From the NCBI GenBank assembly GCA_025928015.1, contig JAICKJ010000005.1, forward strand, positions 1 through 35,269: a stretch of DNA of 35,269 nt. Direction: 5' to 3'. A model generated the notes under the pieces. That model was not told the origin of the DNA, searched no databases, and worked only from the letters and a program-made list of their open reading frames with translations. This stretch comes from Thermomicrobiales bacterium. Lineage in GTDB: Bacteria; Chloroflexota; Chloroflexia; Thermomicrobiales; UBA6265. Each line of letters begins with the position of its first letter. The first letter of the stretch is position 1. Shown here piece after piece: positions 23,880 to 31,237 of this stretch. Made by a program: the position numbers and the translations under genes.

Positions 23880-25175
23880 TCAGGCCGGATAGACGGCCAT
23901 CGACATCCCGTCGAGGACCTTCCACATCCAGACGAATGTATCCCAGTCGTAGTACTTGTATTCGCCGTGCGCCGGGTCGGAGAGGTAGACACCGTCCTGG
24001 TCATAGGCGAAGGCCACCATCACGTGATCGCCCGCCGCGACCGTGTACGTGTCCTGGTCGTGCAGCGTCTGCCGGGTGTTGCCCCACATCCCGAGCCAGA
24101 CGAGGACCGGGTTGCCCGCGTCGATCTCCCGCTTCAGCTGGCTCGTGTCGCCCTCGGAGTAGAACACGTCCGCGCCGAAGCCGTTGGCACTGAGCACCGG
24201 CACCATCGCCTCCGGGTAGATGCCGTAGTCCGTGACACCACCCCACGGACCATCGATGTTGCCGCGGTAGCCGTAGTGTGGATTCTTCGCCAGGCCAATG
24301 TTGTTGATGAAGGTCGACTCGGAGACGCCGGAGCCGAAGGCGCTGGTCGCGATGTAGGCCGCGGCGTACTCGCAGCTCAGGTTGTGCTCCTGCGCATGCG
24401 TCGGCACATTGTCCACATGGACCCAGTTCGGATCGTGGCGGATGCCGGCTTCCGGGCCCGCGCTGGCCGGCGCCGAGCTGTCCCCCTTGCCTCCGGACGG
24501 GATCAGCAGCCGGGTCCCGACCAGCAGGTCGTAAGGATCGGAAATGCCATTCAGGTCGATGATTGACTCGGCGCTGACGCCATAGAGTGTCGCGATGGTG
24601 GCGACGTTGTCACCCGACTCGACGACGTAAGCGGTCTGCACCCACGGGCTGGTGCCCTCGCGGGCGTAGGCGTCCTGCGCCGCTTCGGACGGCGATTGCC
24701 CCGGGTTCGGAATGATGATCACCTGACCCGGCATCAGCGTGTCGCCATCTGGCATGTAACTGGAGGCGGCGATCGCGGCCGGGTCGACGCCGAAGGTCGT
24801 CGCGACCGAGTCGAGCGTGTCGCCATCCTGGACGACGTAGCGCTCCTGCGCCAGCGTGGTGCCCGCCATGCCGAGCAACAGCACGAGCGCGGCCAGCATC
24901 GCCAGCAGGACCGCTCGCGGACCCGCCACGCGCCCGCCCAGCCGCAGGCGGCGGTAGGTCGATCGCCGGCCCGGTCGCAGCGCCCGTGCGTGGGCGGTGG
25001 TGCCTCGGCCGATTGCGTGTGGCCGGCTGATGTAGACCAGCGGCCGGCGATCCGCGAGCGTTCCCACAGGCGCGGTATTGGCATCCGTCCTGGCCGCGCT
25101 CCCGTGCTGGCGCAGCCGAACAGCATAAAGATCCACGAGCCCTCCCCTTGTCCCCTGCCGATCAACGCTGGACAT
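23880..25175 (-). CDS. Exported LysM (x2) + C39-like cysteine peptidase
   Basis: TM/signal segment; YVVQDGDTLDSVATTFGVDPAAIAASSYMPDGDTLMPGQVIIIPNPG and YVVESGDNVATIATLYGVSAESIIDLNGI; C39: HNLSCEYAAAYIA, GDHVMVAFAYD, LSDPAHGEYKYY. Start uncertain (up to 25238). Confidence 0.88.
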   Translation of the reverse strand: MSSVDRQGTRGGLVDLYAVRLRQHGSAARTDANTAPVGTLADRRPLVYISRPHAIGRGTTAHARALRPGRRSTYRRLRLGGRVAGPRAVLLAMLAALVLLLGMAGTTLAQERYVVQDGDTLDSVATTFGVDPAAIAASSYMPDGDTLMPGQVIIIPNPGQSPSEAAQDAYAREGTSPWVQTAYVVESGDNVATIATLYGVSAESIIDLNGISDPYDLLVGTRLLIPSGGKGDSSAPASAGPEAGIRHDPNWVHVDNVPTHAQEHNLSCEYAAAYIATSAFGSGVSESTFINNIGLAKNPHYGYRGNIDGPWGGVTDYGIYPEAMVPVLSANGFGADVFYSEGDTSQLKREIDAGNPVLVWLGMWGNTRQTLHDQDTYTVAAGDHVMVAFAYDQDGVYLSDPAHGEYKYYDWDTFVWMWKVLDGMSMAVYPA

Positions 25176-25376
25176 CCTCCCCTCGTCCTGGATGCCCGGC
25201 CTGTCCGTCCCCTGGCGTGATCCCAACATGACCGTCATTGGCCATCCTCCGCCCGTAGCGAGCGGCGGGGTCGCGCCCGGGTTCCGTCCATCTCGGCCTG
25301 TTGACCGGCTCCGTCTCGCGGCAACCAGCTACCGGCGCGCTTCGGCGCCTTCCTGTCACTGCGAACCACCCTCATG

Positions 25377-26405: not shown

Positions 26406-27644
26406 ATGAGAGGACTCCCAGTGGCCGTCGAGACCAGGGACACAACCACCACGCATACGACCCGGCCAGCGGTGCGCGACCGCGTCGCCAGCCGCACGGC
26501 CGCCTACGGCGATTCGATCTGGACCGAGATGGCCCAGATGTTCAAGCAGCACCCGGACCCGGTCTACTTCGGCGATGGCTCGCCGGCGCCGGAGGCGATG
26601 CCGGTCGCGCAGCTTCGCGCCGCCTCGGCTCACGCCTGGGAGAGCGCGCCGAAATCGCTCGGCTACGGCGAGTCGGACGGCTTCCTGCCGTTGCGTGAGC
26701 TGATCGTCGAGCGCATGAAGCCGCGCGGAATTGACGCGACAGCCGGAGACATCATCGTCACACCGGGCAGCACGCAGGGCATCGAGCTGGCCGCGCGGGT
26801 CATGCTCGAGCCGGGCGACGTCGTCATCCTCGAAAACCCGACCTTCCTCGGCGCGATTCAGACCTTCGAGGCCTACGAGCCGCGCTTCGTGCCGATCGAC
26901 GTCGACGAGCACGGCATGGATATCGACGCGCTCGAGCGGGCGCTGGCCAGCGAGCCGCGCGCCAAGCTGGTCTACACGATCCCGACCTTCCAGAACCCGA
27001 CCGGCTCGACCCTGCCGCTCGAACGCCGGCAGCGGATGATCGCGCTGGCACGCGAGTACGGCGTCCTGATCGTCGAGGACGACCCGTACGGCGAGCTCCA
27101 GTACGATGGCGAGGCCGTGCCACCGTTGCGCGCGCTCGATCCGGACGTCCTCTACCTCGGCACATTCTCCAAGACGATCGCGCCGGCGGTCCGCACCGGT
27201 TGGACCGTCGCGCCGAAGGACCTGCAGACCTATCTGCTCGCCGCGCGCGAGCTGATCGACATCCACAATGACCGGATCACCATGCGCACCGTCTACCACA
27301 CCGCCGCCGACGGTTACCTCGATGCGCACCTGCCCTCCGCCCGCGCCCGCTACAAGAGCCGGCGCGACACGATGCTGGCGGCGCTGGAGGAGCACATGCC
27401 GGACGGCGTGACCTGGTCGCGTCCGAATGGCGGCTTCTTCGTCTGGGTCGCCCTGCCAGAGAACATCGACGTGGTCGAGCTGCTCGGCCGGGCCGCGCGA
27501 CGGGGCGTCATCTTCTTCCCGGGCCACTGGTTCTACCCGCGTCAGGAGCGCCGCAACACGTTCCGCCTCTCCTTCTCGACCGTGCCGGAGGACCGCATCC
27601 GCCTCGGCATCCAGCGTCTGGGTGGGGTGCTCCGGCACGACTAG
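26406..27644 (+). CDS. PLP-dependent aminotransferase (class I/II, 2-aminoadipate/MocR-like fold without HTH)
   Basis: IIVTPGSTQGIELAARVMLEPGDVVILENPTFLGAI...YTIPTFQNPTGSTLPLERRQRM...VEDDPYGEL...LGTFSKTIAPAVRTGW. Confidence 0.94.
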   Translation: MRGLPVAVETRDTTTTHTTRPAVRDRVASRTAAYGDSIWTEMAQMFKQHPDPVYFGDGSPAPEAMPVAQLRAASAHAWESAPKSLGYGESDGFLPLRELIVERMKPRGIDATAGDIIVTPGSTQGIELAARVMLEPGDVVILENPTFLGAIQTFEAYEPRFVPIDVDEHGMDIDALERALASEPRAKLVYTIPTFQNPTGSTLPLERRQRMIALAREYGVLIVEDDPYGELQYDGEAVPPLRALDPDVLYLGTFSKTIAPAVRTGWTVAPKDLQTYLLAARELIDIHNDRITMRTVYHTAADGYLDAHLPSARARYKSRRDTMLAALEEHMPDGVTWSRPNGGFFVWVALPENIDVVELLGRAARRGVIFFPGHWFYPRQERRNTFRLSFSTVPEDRIRLGIQRLGGVLRHD

Positions 27645-27662
27645 CCACCGCGCTCTCCGTTC

Positions 27663-27805
27663 GTCATTCTGAGTGGGCGGAGCCCCGAAGAATCCCCCGG
27701 CGAAGCCGGTCCGCCGCAGCGGACAATCGTGCCTCAAGTGGCGAATGCTGCCTGGTGGCAAGCGCTTCGCGCGGGGATTCTTCGGCCTTCGGCCCTCAGA
27801 ATGAC
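27663..27805. repeat. MITE/REP-like intergenic repeat (GTCATTCTGAG family), copy 2 (inverted relative to copy 1)
   Basis: Terminal inverted repeats GTCATTCTGAG / CTCAGAATGAC; inner GAAGAATCCCC / GGGGATTCTTC. Confidence 0.85.
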
Positions 27806-27896
27806 GGTCATCCCGATCCCACTCCGCGCGGTGTCAACTGTTTGACGGCGCGACCGTCTCCTCCGATCTTCAATGGAAGGCATGGAGGAGCGCGCA

Positions 27897-29102
27897 ATGG
27901 AGCAGGAGCAAGCAATTGGCGAGGCGCTACGGGAGCTGCTGGGCATCGACGGCGACGCCGATCCTACCGCCGCCTACAGCAGACTCTGGACGCAGCCGGG
28001 CGTCTGTCCGCTGGCGCCGGCCGATGCGGTCGTCACGCTCGCCTACGCTGAGGGCGCGACCGTCCTGCGCGACGCGCGGCAGTTCGCACAATGGCCGAGT
28101 GCCGGCCTCTTCCCCGCGCATCCCGAGGATCCCGATCCAGCCCATGACGCCGAGCGCCGCCGCCGTGCGCGCCAGCGGCTCTACGAGGCGCTGGCCGTTC
28201 CCCGCCGCGCCAACGAATTGCAACCGCGGATGGAGCGAATCGCGGCGACGCTCGTCGCGGAGCTTCCGGCCAGCCGGGCCGATCTCGTCAGCGCCTTCGC
28301 CAGCCCGTTCACCGTCGCCGTCATGGGCGAGTTCATGGGGTTGCCGTCGCCCGCCTGGCCGAACTACTGGGCGCGCTGGCTCGCGGAACACCGGCCCTAC
28401 GGAAAACATCCGCGGATCAGCGTCGGACCATATACCGACCGGATCAGGCAGCGCCCCTTGCGAGCGGCGCAGGAGGAGTTGAATCAGGCAATCCTGGCCC
28501 AACTCCACGGCGAGGCGAGCCCCGGCAGCGTGCTGGACACGCTGGGCGAGGCCGTCATCGATGGTGACCTGACCGAAGCGGACGTGCTTTGCATCGTCCC
28601 GGCGCTCTCCCACACGGTCATCAGCATGACCAGCCTCATCGCCGCCGTCACCCGCCGCCTGCTGATCGCGCCCGACCTGGCCCGCGCCGCCATCGCGGCG
28701 CCATCGACGCTGACCCAGGTCATCGAGGAGACCCTGCGGCTGGAACCACCCGTCGCCGCCGTGCTGCGATCGGCAGAGCATGCGACCAGCATCGGAAACG
28801 AGCGTATCGGCGCCGGCGAGGCGGTCGTCGTCCACATCGCGGCGTCAAATCGCGACCCCGCCCGCTTCGCCCATCCCAACCGCCTCGATCCGGACCGACC
28901 ACGATCGAGCTGCCGCCACCTCTCCTTCGGCGCGGGCCCCAACAGTTGCGTCGGCGCACCGCTCGCACGCCGGGCCGCGTTGGCCGGCGTCGCCGCCCTG
29001 CTGCCGCGCCTGCCGCGGATGCAGCTCACCGACGAGCGGCTCCCCTCCTGGCCGCATCCGTTCAACCCGGGGCTCCAGCGCCTCTATGTGGAGGTCGATT
29101 GA
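27897..29102 (+). CDS. Cytochrome P450
   Basis: EETLRLEPPV (ExxR), LSFGAGPNSCVGAPLARRAALAGVAALLPRLP (heme-Cys loop). GGAGGAG SD supports ATG 27897; ATG 27873 is an alternative. Confidence 0.92.
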   Translation: MEQEQAIGEALRELLGIDGDADPTAAYSRLWTQPGVCPLAPADAVVTLAYAEGATVLRDARQFAQWPSAGLFPAHPEDPDPAHDAERRRRARQRLYEALAVPRRANELQPRMERIAATLVAELPASRADLVSAFASPFTVAVMGEFMGLPSPAWPNYWARWLAEHRPYGKHPRISVGPYTDRIRQRPLRAAQEELNQAILAQLHGEASPGSVLDTLGEAVIDGDLTEADVLCIVPALSHTVISMTSLIAAVTRRLLIAPDLARAAIAAPSTLTQVIEETLRLEPPVAAVLRSAEHATSIGNERIGAGEAVVVHIAASNRDPARFAHPNRLDPDRPRSSCRHLSFGAGPNSCVGAPLARRAALAGVAALLPRLPRMQLTDERLPSWPHPFNPGLQRLYVEVD

Positions 29103-29103
29103 C

Positions 29104-30015
29104 GTGTTATTCGACATCCATCCGCTGACATCCAACGAGGCCGCTGCCTACGTGCCGATGACCTTCCCCACCCGGGAGCCGTTGCTCCACGCCTGCGACG
29201 TCGATCCACACGTGATCGCGCTGGGCGCGACGTTTCGCGGCCAGCCGGTCGGGCTGGCACTGGCGGAAATCGCCAACGAAGGTCCTGGGATCGTCCGAAC
29301 GATCTATGTCGCGCCGGATTGCCGGAGTTTCGGGGTCGGATTGACGCTCCTGGCGAGGGCCGAAGAGGCGCTGGCGCGGCGCGGCGCGACCGCCGCTCGC
29401 CTCACCTATCTGGCTGGATTGGCGACGACGCCGCACTGGGAGCGCATTCTTGCCCACCGCGGCTGGAACACGCCACAAATCGACATGCTCCACCTGCGGG
29501 CGACGACGGAGATCACGCGAGCGCCCTGGATCAGGTTCACCCGGTTGCCCGCGGGCATGACCGCTTTCCCCTGGTCCGATCTCACCGACGCCGACCGGCA
29601 CGAGATCGACGCCCGACAGGCGGCCGAGGGCTGGATCCCGCCCGAGCTGGTGCCCTGGCGCTGGGAAGCGGGCTACGACCCACGATGCAGCCTCGCGCTG
29701 CGCGCGCATGGCCGGGTGATCGGCTGGGTGATCACCCAGCCGGTTGGCGAGGACAGCATCAGGTTCTCCGACGCCTGGATCGATCGCGCCTTCCAGCGCG
29801 GCAAGGTCCCACCCTTCCTGCCGCTCTGCATCGCCGCCTTTCGCCGCGCCGAGGCGACCGGCGACTACCGGTACGGTTTGTTCGATTTCTCCTCCCACCA
29901 GAAGCCGGTCTTTCACTTCGTGCAAAGGTGGGTCGTGCCCTACGCGGAGTCGGTCCGGATGACGATGGTGACCAGCAAGGAGCTTCAAGCGGCACCGGCG
30001 GTCAGGATGTCCTGA
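29104..30015 (+). CDS. GNAT-family acyltransferase (two GNAT-like halves)
   Basis: GTG start 1 nt after the P450 stop; GIVRTIYVAPDCRSFGVGLTLLARAEEALARRGATAARL (first half); second half RVIGWVITQPV...; C-terminal PVFHFVQRWVVPYAESVRMTMVTSKEL. Confidence 0.8.
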   Translation: MLFDIHPLTSNEAAAYVPMTFPTREPLLHACDVDPHVIALGATFRGQPVGLALAEIANEGPGIVRTIYVAPDCRSFGVGLTLLARAEEALARRGATAARLTYLAGLATTPHWERILAHRGWNTPQIDMLHLRATTEITRAPWIRFTRLPAGMTAFPWSDLTDADRHEIDARQAAEGWIPPELVPWRWEAGYDPRCSLALRAHGRVIGWVITQPVGEDSIRFSDAWIDRAFQRGKVPPFLPLCIAAFRRAEATGDYRYGLFDFSSHQKPVFHFVQRWVVPYAESVRMTMVTSKELQAAPAVRMS

Positions 30016-30022
30016 CCGCCGG
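29995..30022. terminator. Perfect 13-bp hairpin between convergent GNAT and NHLP genes
   Basis: CCGGCGGTCAGGA tg TCCTGACCGCCGG. Confidence 0.6.
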
Positions 30023-30049
30023 CTGCTGAAAACCGTCATGCCATGCTGA

Positions 30050-30439
30050 TCAGCCGCGCACGCCGCCGACCGAGCGGCCCGGGACATAGGGAACTGTGGG
30101 GTCTCCCTTGCCCGTCTCGTCGTAATACCCGGCGACCTCACGATCACCCAGCTCCGTCCGGGCGATAACGGCGTCGTTCAGCTCGTCCGCCGCCAGCGGC
30201 AGGACGAAATGCAACGACTCCGGCGTCTCCTCGTGGACGTGGATCGCCACCCGCGCGGGCAGCGTCACGCCCAGCTCCTGCTCGACCGTCGCCCGCGGCT
30301 CCTTCAGCAACCGCGCGCGGAACGCCTTGTCCCGCTTGGCGCGATCGACGAACTCCGCCGTGATGAAGTCCCGCGGTCCCTTGACCGGCGACGGTACCGG
30401 CTGTGCCGCAGGCTGTGCCGCAGGTCGTGCCTCTGTCAT
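30050..30439 (-). CDS. NHLP (nitrile hydratase alpha-like leader) family RiPP precursor-like peptide
   Basis: FVDRAKRDKAFRARLLKEPRATVEQELGVTLPARVAIHVHEETPESLHFVLPLAADELNDAVIARTELGDREVAGYYDETGKGDPTVPYVPGRSVGGVRG: NHLP leader pattern (AFRxxLLxxPrAaxexElGvxlPxxvxixVhEeTpxxxhfVLP) with a short C-terminal tail. Confidence 0.82.
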   Translation of the reverse strand: MTEARPAAQPAAQPVPSPVKGPRDFITAEFVDRAKRDKAFRARLLKEPRATVEQELGVTLPARVAIHVHEETPESLHFVLPLAADELNDAVIARTELGDREVAGYYDETGKGDPTVPYVPGRSVGGVRG

Positions 30440-30685
30440 GGCAGCTTCCTTTCAGTTGACCGGACGCCCCGGCGGCGTCCTCGCGATTGCAACCCGATCA
30501 TATCTTCTCACGATCCATGTCGGCAGTAAACCAGTTGACAACCTAGGCGTGCGCGCCGCCCACCGATGCCGGCGATCACTGGCGCGGGATCGTGTGCTAC
30601 CCTCTTCCTGCGCGATGCCCGTGCGGCGTCGCGCGGCTCATCGATCCGTCTCCATCACGCTGTTGCTCCCGGAGCGCCCGCCCGC

Positions 30686-31237
30686 ATGCCAGTTGCTCTC
30701 GCCATCGACGTCAACAAGATCCCGCTCGGCCCGTTCGACACCCGCCTCTGGTGGCTGCTGATCGGCCTCTGCGTCGCGCTGCTGCTCACCTTGCAGGCGG
30801 TCGAGACGGCGGTCGAAGGCGCCTGGCCGAGTGACCGGCGGCCGACCCAGTTCGCGCCCCGCGCCCGCACGGTGCAAGCCTCCTGGGCCTGGGTGGCGAT
30901 GCTCATCATCCCTGGCGGCCTGCTGGCGATCGGCAACGTCGCCGCGCTGATCTGGCGCAAGTCGCCCCACACTGACGCGCAACTCGTCGGCAGCGTGCTG
31001 CTCGGCATCGGCTGGATCCTCTTCCTGCTCTTCAGCCTCGACGTCTTCCGCCTAGGCCGGCTGATGGGCAATCTCGGCATCGTCGGTCCGCTCGCGCTGA
31101 TGCTGATCCTCATCCTCGGCGATATCCTGCTCCTGATCGGGCTCACCGACGTCCTCCCGGCGTGGCATGTTGTACGCGATGCCATCGGCAATGGATTGCA
31201 GGACGTCGTCGATCGCCTGCCATTCATCGGGAACTGA
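30686..31237 (+). CDS. Hypothetical membrane protein (183 aa, about 4 TM)
   Basis: MPVALAIDVNKIPLGPFDTRLWWLLIGLCVALLLTLQAVETAVEG...WAWVAMLIIPGGLLAIGNVAALIWRK...VGSVLLGIGWILFLLFSLDVFRL... Confidence 0.65.
   Translation: MPVALAIDVNKIPLGPFDTRLWWLLIGLCVALLLTLQAVETAVEGAWPSDRRPTQFAPRARTVQASWAWVAMLIIPGGLLAIGNVAALIWRKSPHTDAQLVGSVLLGIGWILFLLFSLDVFRLGRLMGNLGIVGPLALMLILILGDILLLIGLTDVLPAWHVVRDAIGNGLQDVVDRLPFIGN

Follow-up and report, generated by a model that had tools for sequence, protein, structure and literature searches.

Gene organization and boundaries of the locus

The window analysed here, i.e., the whole stretch of 35,269 nt, belongs to contig JAICKJ010000005.1 (C59 in what follows) of assembly GCA_025928015.1, from a Thermomicrobiales bacterium, an uncultured member of the Chloroflexota. 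The locus contains the following features.

27665-27807, no strand: left border of the cassette, with a copy of a dispersed palindromic repeat that has about 40 other genomic sites (inverted repeat I1)
27897-29102, plus strand: cytochrome P450, 401 aa (PF00067, 67.9 bits); the reading frame is open from 27873
29104-30015, plus strand: tandem-GNAT acyltransferase, 303 aa, GTG start, proposed peptide maturase (PF00583; RiPP context of its homologues)
29995-30022, no strand: perfect palindrome, 13 bp with a 2-nt loop, at the convergent junction (from the sequence; fold z-score -5.4)
30050-30439, minus strand: NHLP-leader RiPP precursor, 129 aa (TIGR03793, 64.1 bits; cut-off 50.9)
30053-30127, minus strand: proposed core, YYDETGKGDPTVPYVPGRSVGGVRG, 25 aa, after ...REVAG (from alignments with the precursors of C193 and of G113 and G122, the latter with ...EAVAAGG)

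All the elements described in an earlier note on this DNA were found, namely a P450 gene coupled to a GNAT gene, a perfect hairpin and, convergent with them, a gene encoding a 129-aa NHLP peptide. Only 1 nt separates the P450 stop codon from the GTG codon of the GNAT gene at 29104, and a GGAGGAG sequence six bases upstream of 27897 backs this choice of start for the P450. A Shine-Dalgarno-like AAGGAAG sequence precedes the NHLP precursor gene. The palindrome located between the P450-GNAT pair and the precursor gene includes the GNAT stop codon and has no T-run, and none of 200 shuffled sequences folded equally well.

The cassette is flanked by genes encoding an aminotransferase (26406-27644, upstream) and a membrane protein (30566-31237, downstream), whose orthologues lie 134 to 755 bp apart in eight relatives of the same family, with the MFS gene next to them in four of the eight. 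Because the flanking genes are adjacent in these relatives, the P450-GNAT-NHLP block is, judging from synteny, a discrete insertion of ca. 2.9 kb, and the membrane protein and MFS genes are ordinary neighbours; being conserved flanks in relatives that lack the cassette, they can be discarded as the export partners contemplated in the earlier note. The REP/MITE-like palindromic repeat of ca. 120-145 bp that sits between the aminotransferase and P450 genes may have had a part in the arrival of the cassette. Neither a radical SAM enzyme or comparable maturase nor a C39/NHLP exporter is encoded between the syntenic flanks (27645-30565), and no peptide arginase was identified among the neighbouring genes examined. 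The minus-strand product of 23880-25238, which has two LysM domains and a Peptidase_C39_2 domain of the extracellular type, is unrelated to the leader-cleaving C39 ABC transporters.

The NHLP precursor and its core

The NCBIfam profile TIGR03793 (leader_NHLP) matched the product of 30050-30439 above its cut-off, which bears out the NHLP assignment made previously, and genome-wide it did so at four places, the one in the window and three on contig C193. The proposed core has, as had been noted before, one Lys, no Cys and one Ser; the Lys is found at position 7, and the middle part is rich in Tyr and Pro (YY...PTVPYVP). All four NHLP precursors of this genome have a core with a Lys in its N-terminal part, although its position differs, being 7 in the window core and K4 in the C193 cores. 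Compared with the C193 precursors, that of the window lacks CxxC; it has kept the leader, GVRG at the C-terminus and a Lys early in the core. The precursor cores of G113 and G122, two genomes discussed below, are apparently without Lys. Cleavage of the leader would take place after REVxG or RDVxG in the window and C193 precursors.

With regard to known RiPP classes, the Cys-free window core does not offer the combination of Ser/Thr and Cys of class II lanthipeptides, and of the features of a proteusin cluster the NHLP leader is present, while a radical SAM enzyme and a C39 exporter are absent from the cluster. Two features of a selidamide locus, an NHLP or Nif11 leader (here recognised by TIGR03793) and a GNAT maturase encoded with the precursor, were found, the GNAT gene being adjacent and its homologues residing in RiPP loci. 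The acyl acceptor in selidamides is a core Lys, or an Arg that a peptide arginase turns into Orn; in the window core, the one Lys is the candidate acceptor.

The GNAT protein

Pfam recognised Acetyltransf_1 (PF00583) in the N-terminal half of the GNAT protein only, the C-terminal half remaining unrecognised. When profiles of the two halves, built from six homologues, were aligned with each other, they matched in register along the GNAT core (hhalign E 0.0014, probability only 18%), and the tandem architecture is thus supported but not proven by profile comparison. The N-terminal half contains a P-loop, R74-S-F-G77-V-G79, whose R, G and G are invariant in the six homologues, and the C-terminal P-loop is degenerate in the window protein. 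A single-sequence AlphaFold model of the latter was poor (pLDDT 39), and PHROGs rendered generic acetyltransferase matches only.

The nostolysamide cluster of Nostoc punctiforme encodes NpuN, a characterised GNAT that acylates a Lys of the core and has been modelled as a tandem protein whose P-loop lies in the N-terminal half; relatives of NpuN are encoded together with NHLP or Nif11 precursors, a lanthionine synthetase not always being present (PMC13060382). The likeness of the window GNAT to NpuN is drawn from the published description. It could be argued that the window enzyme carries out N-terminal or Lys acetylation, i.e., the addition of a short acyl group, for instance for self-protection or core capping, in which case the product would be an acetylated RiPP and not a selidamide. 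NpuN does accept acetyl-CoA in vitro (PMC13060382), and Pfam sees only a generic acetyltransferase in the window protein, but NpuN and PhaN, whose precursors are of the Nif11/NHLP kinds, add long acyl chains in heterologous expression (PMC13060382; PMC9505594), and we consider acetylation an unlikely function.

A paralogous cluster in the same genome

Contig C55 (L016) carries P450, LanM and GNAT genes in tight order and ends 49 nt past the GNAT stop codon. Its LanM has 1082 aa (TIGR03897, 808 bits); the motifs WCHG and LCCG of this protein (L016 3447-6695) correspond to the zinc ligand set with three Cys that is known from enzymes of the ProcM clade. The window and C55 GNAT proteins are 50% identical and sisters in the tree (support 98/99), the window branch being the longer one (0.73 vs 0.37), and the two P450s, 35-40% identical, are sisters as well (support 100/100). 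At the end of contig C193 (L014) lie three NHLP precursors that are 50-56% identical over their length to the window precursor and whose cores, FADKDYGTGYSDCKACVGGVRG, FVAKADDGTGTSSCHACVGGVRG and YADKDYGTGYSDCHACASGVRG, bear CxxC and the GVRG C-terminus. These comparisons identify the window cassette as a paralogue of the P450-LanM-GNAT cluster.

When reverse-complemented, the end of C193 starts with TAACCAGG.., with a stop codon, and what comes after is similar, but not identical, to the stretch past the C55 GNAT stop and includes a GC-rich hairpin. Most simply, C193 would represent the far side of another GNAT gene, in the convergent layout seen in the window. When a direct join of C55 and C193 was examined, their ends proved related but not identical, with no exact overlap; that they form one locus is therefore not claimed. 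With a GNAT gene facing an NHLP gene apparently found again at a second locus of the genome, convergence can no longer be held, as it previously had been, against a joint function of the genes in the window.

A search for LanM (TIGR03897) gave matches on C55, C205, C138 and C351, and none on the window contig. The last three contigs harbour LanM/LanC-like loci (L046, L054 and L055, respectively), the one on C205 adjoining a C39 ABC gene, and with the C55 locus they make four in this lanthipeptide-rich genome. An NHLP-like ORF on C85 (L015 2550-2800) consists of a leader only (MTEQTISFGARDVIG...PVAVPA), with no recognisable core. Given these four loci, including the C55 LanM with its CCG motif, the window precursor might be a substrate in trans for LanM or for other maturases (C55, C205), with the local GNAT and P450 as accessories, and ProcM-type enzymes are a known case of one LanM acting on several precursors (PMC13060382). 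A Cys-free core, however, permits no lanthionine, only dehydration of Ser/Thr being possible, and we regard modification in trans as highly improbable.

RiPP linkage of the GNAT relatives

Homologues of the GNAT protein were surveyed in 150 relatives, with one partial match, interrupted by a stop, in G021. Full-length homologues are few among these relatives, and those beyond the window genome are only 25-34% identical; all the examined ones lie in RiPP loci. This rarity, together with the occurrence of NHLP matches at only four places in the genome, places the locus far from a chance association. In G113 and G122, a double-leader NHLP precursor adjoins the GNAT gene, so that the linkage of GNAT and NHLP anticipated in the earlier note does recur in relatives.

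Among the closest systems is a minimal two-gene pair in G073 (L019 873-2264), in which a Nif11-type precursor lies directly upstream of the GNAT gene, with no LanM beside it. As in the window, a GNAT gene is found there next to a Cys-free, Lys-containing core rich in Pro and Tyr (FASNVAGQKAKAKSPGPIANPIPLPYPNVG, which is Lys-rich); in contrast to the window, the leader is of the Nif11 type (25.6 bits, under the curated cut-off of 32.3), there is no P450 and the two genes are in same-strand order. LanM is present elsewhere in the G073 genome, and the general rule that cores are Cys-free because the genome is without LanM was therefore rejected.

In G083 and G087, a C39 ABC transporter (PCAT) gene, five to six tandem short precursor genes, LanM and GNAT are found, with LanM directly followed by GNAT as in C55, and in G087 a HlyD-like gene lies upstream of the C39 transporter. 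These precursors, of 52-58 aa and encoded between the transporter and LanM-GNAT (L020 13900-15100 in G083; L021 14300-15530 in G087), show SLELSDEELEVVSAG and then mostly KEKKSYSCTVSRGDGACTCTC, and end in ELEVVSAG, mostly followed by a core that starts with KEKKSYSC.. Such loci are candidate acyl-lanthipeptide clusters with near-identical cores starting with Lys1. The adjacency of LanM and GNAT in G083, G087 and C55 makes loss of LanM from between the P450 and GNAT genes of the window the parsimonious direction and, in our view, the likelier one; the reverse, a gain of LanM in C55, would be less parsimonious.

Beyond the Chloroflexota, a Shinella plasmid carries a GNAT gene, a Nif11 precursor, a radical SAM gene, an NHLP precursor, a second GNAT gene and NHLP exporters, and a Mesorhizobium plasmid carries Nif11, radical SAM epimerase, GNAT and radical SAM genes. 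In a plasmid of Microcoleus vaginatus PCC 9802 (L069 10001-10907), a GNAT homologue is split over two frames; radical-SAM-like and HlyD-like genes are nearby and an ABC transporter gene then follows. Cyanobacterial plasmid proteins annotated as TIGR03032 family (L070, L071) contain a region 28-31% identical to the window GNAT over nearly its full length and adjoin cadherin-like or Ig-like proteins; they were set aside, no annotated RiPP precursor adjoining them. Scans of contig collections with GNAT and NHLP alignments provided no confirmed relatives. Overall, the selidamide-like (GNAT-acylated RiPP) reading of the window locus is well supported by genomic context, since members of the GNAT family are linked to RiPPs elsewhere in the Chloroflexota and on plasmids of alphaproteobacteria, and what has fallen from the original proposal are its export partners and its argument from convergence.

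A divergent P450 pair

The acid-alcohol pair and a His that contacts a heme propionate are the standard residues for O2 activation in P450s. The window P450 keeps the heme Cys (FGAGPNSCVG) and ExxR, and lacks both the I-helix AGxE/DT motif and the His before the heme Cys. When the window and C55 P450s were aligned with 20 other P450 homologues from the Chloroflexota, AG[HN]E[TS] was found in helix I of 19 of these 20, and in all of them a His precedes the heme Cys by two residues. The corresponding segments are ALSHTV and FGAGPNSC in the window protein and TLANNA and FGYGADYC in the C55 protein, which has also kept ExxR and the heme Cys and, as in the window, has neither the I-helix motif nor the His. 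Curated matches of the window P450 are generic or far under cut-off, its solved-structure relatives are ordinary macrolide-type hydroxylases, and the next P450 matches in relatives are much weaker (157 vs 696 bits). Nothing else in the system is as unusual as this divergent pair of P450s. It may be, on the basis of these motifs, that the window P450 is non-catalytic. Somewhat doubtfully, we also raise the possibility that the pair constitutes a separate clade acting on an acylated peptide, either with atypical chemistry (peroxide-driven, substrate-assisted or cross-linking) or as a heme-binding scaffold; were this the case, the system would represent a P450-tailored, ring-less class of lipopeptide RiPPs.

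The loss of the O2-activation motif, together with the loss of LanM and of both Cys, the longer branch of the window GNAT and the absence of an export gene nearby, could alternatively mean that the cassette is a decaying paralogue, i.e., a duplicated lanthipeptide cluster minus LanM and Cys, yielding no modified product or an unmodified peptide only. However, since the P450 of the intact, LanM-containing C55 cluster has the same motif change, this change belongs to both P450s and does not represent decay of the window copy. Moreover, none of the three ORFs is disrupted, their ribosome-binding sites are good, the P450 and GNAT genes are tightly coupled, and GVRG, the leader and the Lys have been retained. 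Substitution rates were dN 0.47 and dS 1.17 for GNAT, dN 0.64 and dS 0.93 for P450, and dN 0.32 and dS 0.75 for the window precursor vs precursor N3; the synonymous sites are favoured in all three, though with pairwise dS near saturation this excess is weak evidence for constraint only. The longer GNAT branch leaves early decay possible, but decay as an explanation of the locus appears to us improbable.

Proposed function and comparison with known systems

We consider it reasonably probable, from the gene content and its context, that the window cassette is a LanM-less, selidamide-type locus in which the core Lys receives an acyl group from the GNAT and the P450 also acts on this peptide. The system, a paralogue of the P450-LanM-GNAT cluster, has probably lost LanM and the core CxxC, and would operate through recruitment of the tandem GNAT by the NHLP leader and transfer of an acyl group, donated by acyl-CoA or an acyl carrier, to the amine of a core side chain, the likeliest acceptor being the single Lys at position 7. 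This precursor would also be the substrate of the coupled P450, whose reaction is probably an oxidation or cross-linking in the central part of the core, rich in Tyr and Pro. The leader would be cut off after REVAG, and the product exported, by an ABC transporter with a C39 peptidase from another part of the genome, leader removal in trans being an assumption of this scheme. Peptidase_C39 (PF03412) genes are present on C75, C205 and C368; the C75 transporter, an example of what could serve, scores 681 bits with TIGR03796, under the cut-off of 853. Counted against the acylation model are the position of the single Lys, at 7 instead of K4 as in C193 or K1 as in NpuA, and the absence of PCAT, arginase and LanM from the cassette.

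The nostolysamide cluster npuA/M/N (PMC13060382) shares with the window a tandem GNAT that is linked to RiPPs and has one P-loop in the N-terminal half and a degenerate one in the C-terminal half, a leader of the Nif11/NHLP kind and a core with a Lys in its N-terminal part. The window differs from it in having no LanM, no Cys and no PCAT in the cluster, in the coupled P450, in the NHLP instead of Nif11 leader and in a Lys at position 7, not 1. Phaeornamide, a known GNAT-acylated RiPP with an NHLP leader (phaA/R/M/I/N; PMC9505594), is alike in combining an NHLP precursor, a GNAT and an oxidative enzyme, but this last is an Fe(II)/alpha-KG hydroxylase and not a P450; its cluster includes LanM, a peptide arginase and transporters, all absent from the window cassette, and its acyl group is on hydroxyornithine. 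Within the genome, the C55/C193 cluster or clusters share paralogous P450, GNAT and precursors, the GVRG C-terminus and apparently the convergent layout, and differ in having LanM and CxxC cores.

No paper combining NHLP, P450, RiPP and GNAT was found in the open-licence literature. GNAT/NHLP clusters without a lanthionine synthetase were already known (PMC13060382); what is new is a LanM-free P450-GNAT-NHLP cassette together with a LanM-containing paralogue in one genome. The RiPP-linked GNAT family is thereby extended within the Chloroflexota. Because the genome also has the LanM version of the cluster, the Cys-free core of the window, in which absence of LanM goes with absence of the core CxxC, becomes an informative feature. 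The lanthionine-forming and lanthionine-free versions of one acyl-RiPP cluster constitute a natural paired experiment, which allows one to ask what the GNAT requires of a core, whether rings are a prerequisite for acylation and how a non-canonical P450 contributes to RiPP maturation.
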